A stretch of DNA of 64,000 nucleotides from an uncultured Wohlfahrtiimonas sp. (GTDB lineage: Bacteria > Pseudomonadota > Gammaproteobacteria > Cardiobacteriales > Wohlfahrtiimonadaceae), in the NCBI GenBank assembly GCA_947630895.1, contig CANRJJ010000003.1:1-64000 (forward strand), in the 5' to 3' direction. A program made the position numbers and the translations under genes. How positions within the stretch are numbered: the stretch's first letter is position 1; each line of letters opens with the position of its first letter. Shown piece by piece: positions 11,391 to 14,717 of the stretch. The notes under the pieces are model-generated. The model had not been told where the DNA came from. It worked only from the letters and a program-made list of their open reading frames with translations, and did not search any database.

Positions 11391-12599
11391 ATGCAAAAAT
11401 TTGATGTTGTAATCAATGGTGCTGGCTTAGTTGGATCAAGTATTGCACTCGCTTTGGCAGCTGCAAATTTCAAAGTATTAATCGTTGAATTTGCCCCGAT
11501 TGAGAAGCTATATCCTAAAGATGATTATGGTTTGCGAGTTTCTGCATTCACGCCTTCTAGTCGTAAATGGTTGGAGTATGTCGGTGTATGGGATCAACTA
11601 TTGCACAGCGGTAGAATGACGCCATTTTTGCATATGCATGTTTGGGATGCAGCAGGTGATGGTGCTTTGCAACTCGATGCAGATGGTACAGGTTCAGATG
11701 CTTTAGGTTGGATTTTAGATAATGAAGCAACGCAAGGCGCTTTATTGGATCGAGTGAAAACAGAATCGAATATCACACTATTAGATAATTGCAAACTCGT
11801 CGATTTTGAAAATATTGTCGGTGGCGTGATTGTCCAAGTTAGTACAGGTGAAAAATTTGAAACTGAATTGGTAATCGGTGCAGATGGTGGTCGATCACTC
11901 ATTAGAGATTGGGCGAATATTCCAAGCACAGGTTGGAGTTATGGGCAAAAAACAATTGTTGGGCAGGTTAAACCTGAACGCAGTCATGACAATACGTGTT
12001 GGCAGAAGTTTGATAAGAATGGACCAGTTGCATTATTGCCATTAAACGATGGGCGTTGTTCATTGGCTTGGCATACAACACCACAAGAAGCAGATGAGTT
12101 ATTAGCGCTCGATTCGGAAGAATTTGGTAGACGATTGACAGAAGCATTCAATGGTCGCTTTGGTAAGATCGAGGCAGATTGGAAATTAGGCGCATTTCCA
12201 TTGCGCTTGAATCATGCGCGTCATTATTATCGCAATCATTTTGTATTGGCAGGTGATGCTGCGCACAATATTCATCCTCTAGCAGGCTTAGGCGTAAATA
12301 TCGGCTTTTTAGATGCAGCAACGTTGGCTGAAGAGCTGATGGATGCTCGTCAGCAGGGCTTAAATTTGTCAGATGAAGTTGTATTGAGCAAATATGAAAA
12401 GCGTCGTAAAAAACATAATATGTTAATTATGGGCGCTATGGATGTATTCAAAAGAAGCGGCGGTTCAGATAACTTTGTGATGAACAAGCTTCGAAATGTG
12501 GGATTAACCGTTGCTGATAAATTCCCATTGGGAAAGAGAGAGTTGGCAAAATTTGCTATGGGTTATTATGGAGACATTCCAAAATTTATAAAACCTTAA
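11391..12599 (+). CDS. ubiI: UbiH/UbiI-family FAD-dependent ubiquinone hydroxylase (VisC-like)
   Basis: Second flavin monooxygenase for ubiquinone synthesis, most likely the C5 hydroxylase UbiI, though UbiF (C6) cannot be excluded. FAD motif NGAGLVGSSIALALA at the start, GADGGRSLIRDWA in the middle, and GDAAHNIHPLAGLGVNIGFLD in the C-terminal half. 402 aa. AGGAG stands 6 bases before the ATG and the gap to the previous gene is 8 bases. No membrane segment; these enzymes act in the soluble Ubi metabolon. Confidence 0.85.
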   Translation: MQKFDVVINGAGLVGSSIALALAAANFKVLIVEFAPIEKLYPKDDYGLRVSAFTPSSRKWLEYVGVWDQLLHSGRMTPFLHMHVWDAAGDGALQLDADGTGSDALGWILDNEATQGALLDRVKTESNITLLDNCKLVDFENIVGGVIVQVSTGEKFETELVIGADGGRSLIRDWANIPSTGWSYGQKTIVGQVKPERSHDNTCWQKFDKNGPVALLPLNDGRCSLAWHTTPQEADELLALDSEEFGRRLTEAFNGRFGKIEADWKLGAFPLRLNHARHYYRNHFVLAGDAAHNIHPLAGLGVNIGFLDAATLAEELMDARQQGLNLSDEVVLSKYEKRRKKHNMLIMGAMDVFKRSGGSDNFVMNKLRNVGLTVADKFPLGKRELAKFAMGYYGDIPKFIKP

Positions 12600-12619: not shown

Positions 12620-13024
12620 ATGATTGAAGAGAAATTTAAAACATTAGAATCAAATATTTTTAGCTTGCTAGAAGAAAACAAAAATCTGAAAGTAGAGTTG
12701 GAGCTTTTGAAAGAAAGCTTGAGCCAATGCATGACTGAATCAGCAGAATCGATCAAGGTTTTAAAAGAAGAATCAGAGCAAAAATATGAAGCGTTACAGT
12801 TGGAATCAGCACGTAACTTAACAAATTTGCAAACAGAATCAGCGCAATCGATCGCAGCGCTACAGGCAGCTTCTTCTCAGGCTTTGGAAACTTTGCAAAC
12901 TGAATCTGCTCAAGCATTACAAGAGTTGAAAGATGAGAATGATTTGGTTCAATCTCGCAATACTGAATTGACGATGCATTTGAAAAAAATCATGAGTCGT
13001 TTAGAGTCTTTAGGTGTTCAATAA
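12620..13024 (+). CDS. Coiled-coil protein with 11-residue repeats, next to zapA (possible ZapB-like/TIGR02449-like)
   Basis: A 134-aa, almost wholly helical protein that I cannot assign firmly. Residues 1-36 look like an ordinary leucine heptad coil. Residues 37-102 are six back-to-back 11-residue units of the pattern LQtESAqxlxx (for example LQTESAQSIAA). The last 30 residues return to a leucine-rich helix. In Pseudomonas and relatives a short coiled-coil gene sits just before zapA, and this gene occupies that place, so a divisome or ZapA-partner role is a reasonable inference. It is about twice as long as that small family, because of the repeat block. No signal peptide or membrane segment. 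Confidence 0.75.
   Translation: MIEEKFKTLESNIFSLLEENKNLKVELELLKESLSQCMTESAESIKVLKEESEQKYEALQLESARNLTNLQTESAQSIAALQAASSQALETLQTESAQALQELKDENDLVQSRNTELTMHLKKIMSRLESLGVQ
12728..12925 (+). repeat. Six in-frame 33-bp (11-aa) repeats
   Basis: The repeat block encodes residues 37-102 of the coiled-coil gene. The units are CMTESAESIKV, LKEESEQKYEA, LQLESARNLTN, LQTESAQSIAA, LQAASSQALET and LQTESAQALQE. The protein repeat is clearer than the DNA repeat, so the expansion is not recent throughout. Confidence 0.85.
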
Positions 13025-13036
13025 GGGGATAGATCA

Positions 13037-13327
13037 ATGGAATTAATCACAATCACAGTTTTAGGTATAGATTATAAAATTAACTGTCCACCTGAAAAAA
13101 TTGATTCATTAAAACGTTCAGCAGTTTTATTAGATTCTCGCTTAGCTACGATGAGAGCGAGCGGAAAAATGTCGATTGAGCAAGCAGCTATTATGGTTGG
13201 GTTACATTTGGCAGATGAGTTGTTGCAATCTGAAAGTGCACTAAAAAATATTAGAACCGAATGGGTTGGTCAATTGGATTCTTTGAATTTTAAATTGAAT
13301 GAAGCATTGGAAAAAAAGGAATCATAA
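13037..13327 (+). CDS. zapA: Cell division protein ZapA
   Basis: Cytoplasmic activator that cross-links FtsZ protofilaments at midcell. The N-terminal globular part shows VTVLGIDYKINCPPE-like family sequence and the later IEQAAIMVGLHLADELL segment, followed by a C-terminal helix for dimer or tetramer formation. 96 aa (E. coli 109). Twelve bases after the coiled-coil gene; its stop overlaps the next start as TAATG. Unlike in E. coli, no 6S RNA-like sequence follows it. Confidence 0.92.
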   Translation: MELITITVLGIDYKINCPPEKIDSLKRSAVLLDSRLATMRASGKMSIEQAAIMVGLHLADELLQSESALKNIRTEWVGQLDSLNFKLNEALEKKES

Positions 13328-13740
13328 TGATTTTGGATGCTCGAATTGCCAATAGCACTAAATTTATTGCGGAATTATCACTTTGTAATCTTTATTTGCA
13401 AAATGAATCACGCTTTCCTTGGTTGGTTTTAGTGCCAAGAATTGCTGATGTATCTGAATTAATCGACTTGTCAGAAGCTGATCAACAGCAGTTAACCAAA
13501 GAGATCGCGCTAGTTTCTAAATTAGTTCAATCAATGTTTAAGCCAGATAAGCTGAATGTTGCAAATTTAGGCAATGTTGTGGCGCAATTGCACATTCATG
13601 TTGTGGCGCGTTTTAATGCTGATGCAGCTTGGCCTGATCCTATTTGGGGCAAATTTAGCGCGCCAATGACTTATTCTGATGAAGAAAGTGATCGATTGGT
13701 AAGTGCAATTCAAGCTCAGTTGATGAGCCATGTTATATGA
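13327..13740 (+). CDS. HIT domain protein (QLHIHVVAR subfamily)
   Basis: Histidine-triad nucleotide hydrolase/transferase superfamily member of 137 aa. The triad region reads QLHIHVVARF followed by DAAWPDPIWG, which is the conserved pattern of a proteobacterial subfamily in which the first triad His is Gln. Cellular substrate unknown. It overlaps zapA by one base and yihY by four (ATGA), so all three are coupled. Confidence 0.88.
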   Translation: MILDARIANSTKFIAELSLCNLYLQNESRFPWLVLVPRIADVSELIDLSEADQQQLTKEIALVSKLVQSMFKPDKLNVANLGNVVAQLHIHVVARFNADAAWPDPIWGKFSAPMTYSDEESDRLVSAIQAQLMSHVI

Positions 13741-14717
13741 ATATCGTTAAAAAATTGAATGCATGGCTCTGGAGTGAGCCATGCAATATTTTTAAATTTT
13801 TATGTCAATTGATGTATCGATTGATAGAAAGCGTGACAAAAGAAGGTATTCGAACTCGTGCGCAAGCCTTGGCTTATACAACCATCTTATCCATTGTTCC
13901 GCTTTTAGCCGTTAGCTTTTCAATTTTAAAAAGCTTTGGTGTATACCAAAGCTTTATTCCCATTCTGAATAGAATGTTTGCGGCAAGCGGTATACAAGAT
14001 CATGATTTGACAGATAGTTTGATTGGTTTTGTTGATAATGTTCAGGTCGGTATTTTGGGTAGTGTTGGCTTTGTTATTTTGTTCTATACCGTTGTTAGCT
14101 TAATCAGCACGATTGAAACTGCTTTTAATAATAACTGGGGTGTTGAGCGAAATAGAAAGTTTACGCAAAGATTTTCATATTATTTAGTGGTCGTATTGAT
14201 TGGGCCAGTTTTAATATTTTCTTTAATATCAATGATTTCAAGTGCGGTGATTATAAAAGCATTTGAAGTGCCATTGCCCATTTGGTTAACAGAATCATTG
14301 AGTGAAGGCTTTACCATTTTGGTGCTGACAGTTTGTTTGACAGCTATATATTGTTTTGTGACTAATGCTAAAGTGAAATTTATTCCTGCGTTGATTGGTG
14401 GTCTGGTTGCTGCCGTTGCATGGCATTTTATGGGGAAGGTTTTTACGGATTTTATCGCGACATCGAGTAAATATTCAGGAATATATTCAGGTTTTGCGAG
14501 TGTGATTTTATTCTTTATTTGGCTAGATTTAACATGGTTGATTGTATTGGTGGGTAACCGTTTAACCTATTTATTGCAATATCCTGAAAAGTTAAGAATT
14601 GACAGTCAAAATAGTGAGTTTGTTGTGCCTGAATCAATCACGCTAACAATCTCTCCAAAAGATAAATATGGTGACGAATGGATGGTTCAGTCCATTCGAG
14701 CGAAAAAGGAGAAGTAA
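13737..14717 (+). CDS. YihY/UPF0761 family inner membrane protein
   Basis: Polytopic inner-membrane protein of 326 aa with about six membrane segments. It shows the family blocks TRAQALAYTTILSIVPLLAV near residue 45, FNNNWGVERNRKF near 128, and YSGFASVILFFIWLDLTWLI near 250. The family was once called RNase BN in error; the real function is unknown. ATGA overlap with the HIT gene. Confidence 0.9.
   Translation: MNIVKKLNAWLWSEPCNIFKFLCQLMYRLIESVTKEGIRTRAQALAYTTILSIVPLLAVSFSILKSFGVYQSFIPILNRMFAASGIQDHDLTDSLIGFVDNVQVGILGSVGFVILFYTVVSLISTIETAFNNNWGVERNRKFTQRFSYYLVVVLIGPVLIFSLISMISSAVIIKAFEVPLPIWLTESLSEGFTILVLTVCLTAIYCFVTNAKVKFIPALIGGLVAAVAWHFMGKVFTDFIATSSKYSGIYSGFASVILFFIWLDLTWLIVLVGNRLTYLLQYPEKLRIDSQNSEFVVPESITLTISPKDKYGDEWMVQSIRAKKEK

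Follow-up and report, generated by a model that had tools for sequence, protein, structure and literature searches.

A coiled-coil gene before zapA in Wohlfahrtiimonas, lengthened in steps of eleven residues: a putative stretched ZapA partner

Why does a small coiled-coil protein encoded directly before zapA carry a series of equal 11-residue repeats in its middle, and could the length of this coil matter? The layer that ZapA forms with ZapB or ZauP is believed to connect the Z-ring with the chromosome, or to keep them apart, and to make FtsZ filaments cohere, and in the literature we found no test of whether coil length in this layer matters. The gene studied here lies on the + strand at 12620..13024 of the window (the whole stretch of DNA analyzed, 64,000 nucleotides from an uncultured Wohlfahrtiimonas species), runs from ATG to TAA, and encodes 134 amino acids. 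It is preceded by a UbiH/UbiF-family hydroxylase gene (11391-12599) and followed 12 nt 3', on the same strand, by its presumed partner gene zapA (13037..13327, +), which scores 56.4 bits with the Pfam ZapA model (cut-off, 23.8) and whose product matches the solved ZapA structures 1T3U, 9ISJ, and 4P1M. Coils of the pre-zapA type are known; this one is lengthened by a variable number of 11-residue blocks, whereas the relatives sampled outside the group are of near-fixed length.

The protein is divided into a conserved N-terminal heptad block (residues 1-36; 12620..12727, +), six hendecads (residues 37-102; 12728..12925, +), and a conserved C-terminal block (residues 103-134; 12926..13021, +) with the motif QSRNxELxxHLKKIMSRLESLGxQ, near-invariant within the genus. 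An earlier note, made from the sequence alone, had described residues 37-102 as six 11-residue units with leucine at each start from the second onward, and both statements are borne out by the open reading frame translation and lag-11 shuffles. The units are, in order, CMTESAESIKV, LKEESEQKYEA, LQLESARNLTN, LQTESAQSIAA, LQAASSQALET, and LQTESAQALQE, beginning with Cys in unit 1 and with Leu in units 2-6. The same note's recurring ESAQ core holds in a looser form, as the units in general have [E/A]-S-[A/S/E] at this place and literal ESAQ occurs in units 4 and 6 only. Lag-11 identity in the repeat block is 20, a value that 20,000 shuffles never attained at lags of 3 to 33; for the whole 134-residue protein, the lag-11 periodicity has a P value of ~0.00025 by shuffling. 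Within the block, Leu, Ile, Val, Met, and Phe recur most strongly every 3.66 residues (11/3) rather than every 3.5 (7/2), the peak of apolar spacing in the N-terminal 36 residues. Among the 31 units of six species, position 9 is L, I, V, or Y in all 31, position 1 is L, I, or F in 25, and position 5 is S or A in 29, giving the 3-4-4 apolar spacing of a hendecad pattern. The block thus has the spacing of a hendecad coil in which one of the three seam layers per unit is small or polar (Ser/Ala).

The AlphaFold2 monomer is one continuous helix from residue 2 to residue 130 (pLDDT, 96), which would be ~19 nm long if each residue adds 0.15 nm. These predictions are of single chains, oligomeric state and partner being outside the scope of monomer AlphaFold2. 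A read-through fusion of the coil and ZapA (TAA taken as Gln, as a modeling device only) was also tried for docking and was set aside, as its two parts were not placed with confidence (pTM, 0.33). At the DNA level, TRF detected no tandem repeat of period 33 in the coil gene, and units within the gene share at most ~24 of 33 bases. The repeats are therefore old and kept at the protein level, and a recent, microsatellite-like expansion is ruled out.

The earlier note had expected conservation beside zapA and a variable repeat number, and this is what the genus displays. In all six Wohlfahrtiimonas species compared (one genome per species), the coil gene is directly before zapA. Measured from a common start, the coils are 134, 134, 134, 123, 112, and 112 amino acids long, that is, 68 + 11n with n = 6, 6, 6, 5, 4, and 4, so that the residues in excess of 68 (66, 66, 66, 55, 44, and 44) are always a multiple of 11. 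One complete unit present in W. populi is missing in W. larvae. The two ends are conserved, with 94-100% identity of the N-terminal block in close pairs and almost invariant C-terminal 27 residues across the genus. A comparison of the window species with W. populi gives 88% identity in the C-terminal block and 58% in the middle, and in diverged pairs identity drops and dN rises in the middle relative to the ends. The composition of the hendecads is kept even though synonymous sites are close to saturation.

Beyond the genus, the other Ignatzschineriaceae and Cardiobacteriaceae loci that we examined likewise have a coil before zapA. Other Ignatzschineriaceae have a coil of 81, 83, or 113 amino acids at this place, and the coils of the sister family Cardiobacteriaceae have 128-158 amino acids, several of them with significant 11- or 22-residue periodicity. 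We also observed 7- and 11- or 11/22-residue periodicity in L016 (the 113-residue coil, from another Ignatzschineriaceae genus) and in L044, L045, and L051 (Cardiobacteriaceae included); these periodic coils suggest that lengthening was order-wide or repeated. For comparison outside Cardiobacteriales, 90 gammaproteobacterial genomes supplied the reading frame before zapA; most of them were the top ZapA hits within an even draw, and the survey is biased toward strong ZapA matches. A compact-coil profile is matched by 88 of the 90, and 87 span it. As the earlier note had stated, the usual coil at this place is without such repeats: 82 of these 87 loci are free of net indels in the core. The remaining five differ by -7 (three loci), +2 (one), and +3 (one), and changes of -7 would be expected under a constraint on helix phase. 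Loci outside the order seldom differ in net length, and coil length is thus normally constrained. The stretched coil is a feature of Cardiobacteriales, with exact 11-residue steps clearest in Wohlfahrtiimonas.

Is the stretched coil related to the compact one? In a search with the intact coil and with the repeats cut out, no curated family claims the protein. The NCBIfam model TIGR02449 (cut-off, 55.4 bits), to which typical compact coils belong, gave no match at an E value of ≤1 to the full protein or to the protein with repeats removed, whereas members from other gammaproteobacteria score 68-73 bits; across the Cardiobacteriales genomes it matched nothing, controls included, and that scan carries no weight as a sign of absence. 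A ZapA/ZapB-like partner had been proposed at the outset; the protein is better described as a stretched relative of the TIGR02449 coil, analogous to ZauP. It is no hit to the ZapB model (PF06005), which reaches 12.0 bits (E = 0.31) against a gathering cut-off of 31.5. A sequence search of the PDB returned generic coils such as GCN4, and ZapB only at an E value of 0.63. Aligned by hhalign, the Ignatzschineriaceae coil profile and the compact gammaproteobacterial coil pair N half to N half and C half to C half along 69 columns, leaving the repeat block as a gap at the junction of the compact coil's halves. The score is 38.6; the best of 100 column shuffles that preserve the apolar pattern reaches 26.2, and the reversed profile reaches 11.9. 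The single-sequence HMM score of the protein with the repeats cut out exceeds all plain shuffles against the compact-coil profile, but 8 of 1,000 pattern-preserving shuffles match it, and cuts at other places score as well or better. Coiled coils produce weak false similarity, and for this reason the case for homology rests on the profile-profile comparison and on synteny. Given a score above its controls and a fixed place before zapA, the best reading, to be taken with caution, is that the coil descends from the same gene as the TIGR02449-type compact coil.

That compact coil shares with the Wohlfahrtiimonas protein its place before zapA, its all-coil nature, and its alignable halves; it differs in a core of ~65 residues of near-fixed length, whereas the Wohlfahrtiimonas coil has 44-66 extra residues as hendecads and falls under the curated cut-off. 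Another close described system is ZauP of Caulobacter crescentus, which is encoded with zapA, is multimeric, and binds ZapA directly (PMC7858052); we liken the two by gene context and coil nature, not by sequence. ZauP holds the terminus protein ZapT (PMC7858052, PMC7188993), the product of a merR gene beside ihfA, which is not at that place in the Wohlfahrtiimonas genome. In the flank of ihfA (G000:C41:13728-14012) there is no merR gene; a transporter-like reading frame follows, and the zapT candidate of other proteobacteria is thus absent there. Escherichia coli ZapB is likewise small and all coil, acts through ZapA, and makes up a layer inside that of FtsZ/ZapA (PMC4388696), but the Wohlfahrtiimonas coil is under the ZapB cut-off, and MatP was not found in this genome or in related genomes. 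Nor was ZapB found in the genome: its only profile match, at C15, is below threshold and was rejected, as the reading frame looks like FtsB. Among MatP, ZapB, and an ihfA-linked merR gene, the genome thus yielded no known anchor for the far end of the coil. Reviewed coiled-coil molecular spacers have diverged sequence between conserved ends and keep their length (PMC5082667); the Wohlfahrtiimonas coil likewise has a diverged middle, but its length shifts by 11 between sister species.

The gene, its adjacency to zapA, the repeats, the 11-residue steps, the conserved ends, and the profile homology are established, and a single helix is predicted. ZapA binding by the coil, its midcell location, its oligomeric state, and a spacer function are what we infer from these. 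We propose, with a probability of roughly two in three, that the coil is a ZapA partner of the ZauP/ZapB type, related to the TIGR02449 coils that precede zapA in most gammaproteobacteria and stretched by phase-keeping hendecads into a rigid spacer. The two conserved ends would be the two halves of an ordinary coil of ~65-70 residues, between which 11-residue blocks would have been inserted in the Wohlfahrtiimonas lineage. Eleven residues make three helical turns, so that each block adds ~1.65 nm and leaves the ends barely rotated relative to each other. If one conserved end binds ZapA on the Z-ring and the opposite end packs on itself or holds another factor, the hendecad block would set the distance between the layers. 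We are more tentative about a further step, a doubtful one, in which the pre-zapA coil of Cardiobacteriales is a ruler of tunable length, its hendecad count setting the distance from ZapA/FtsZ to the inner layer and evolving between species while the binding ends stay fixed. Coils with 0, 4, 5, and 6 blocks of equal size, bounded by conserved ends, form a natural series and a ready-made ruler test.

Conserved ends with three-turn steps in the middle have the look of a spacer, and equally that of a neutral rod constrained in phase; both fit. The protein may therefore be a ZapA partner whose hendecads are nearly neutral, the product of slippage and duplication in a helix able to accommodate steps of whole 11-residue units, with length carrying no function. 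We consider this unlikely, although it deserves serious weight, as identity is lowest and dN highest in the middle, the number of units differs between close species, and unit position 5 is mostly Ser, making the inner seam partly polar. It does not sit well with the retention of hendecad composition despite near-saturated synonymous sites, nor with the rarity of net length change outside Cardiobacteriales, where length is normally constrained.

Two other explanations depart further from a spacer. The hendecad block could be a multivalent binding surface for an additional partner, in the way that a ZauP oligomer collects several ZapT dimers (PMC7858052), and the [E/A]-S-[A/S/E] surface that recurs in 31 units is consistent with this; however, a candidate ligand was not found, with neither an ihfA-linked merR gene nor MatP detected in the genome, and we judge the idea quite improbable. 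It is very improbable indeed that an unrelated coiled coil with no role in division came to lie before zapA by chance: such a coil would explain the lack of a curated family match, but not its constant place before zapA over two families, its conserved C-terminal motif, or a profile homology that holds against controls. A stretched ZapA partner with a spacer role is the reading that we prefer.

Several features of the surrounding locus are worth recording. In five of the six Wohlfahrtiimonas species, zapA continues the reading frame of the coil gene after a single stop codon and a short gap (12620-13327 in the window); G005 is the exception, and the shared frame is probably due to chance. In beta- and gammaproteobacteria, the operon with the pre-zapA coil has been described as zapB-zapA-ssrS (PMC7641849). 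The zapA operon is split in Wohlfahrtiimonas, with the 6S RNA away from zapA: a HIT-like gene lies 3' of zapA (window positions 13327-13740), where there is no 6S RNA, and the 6S RNA is on another contig of the same genome (G000:C2:33857-34042), followed by a reading frame resembling 5-formyltetrahydrofolate cyclo-ligase. At 13760-13785, just inside a predicted YihY reading frame (13737-14717), a 10-pair inverted repeat has a T run on both strands; it may be a terminator, or the start of YihY may be further downstream. In the Cardiobacteriaceae locus L047, a YgfB-like gene and the coil-zapA pair stand head to head, as is usual in gammaproteobacteria; in Wohlfahrtiimonas, the ubi genes instead share the strand of the coil gene and lead into it.
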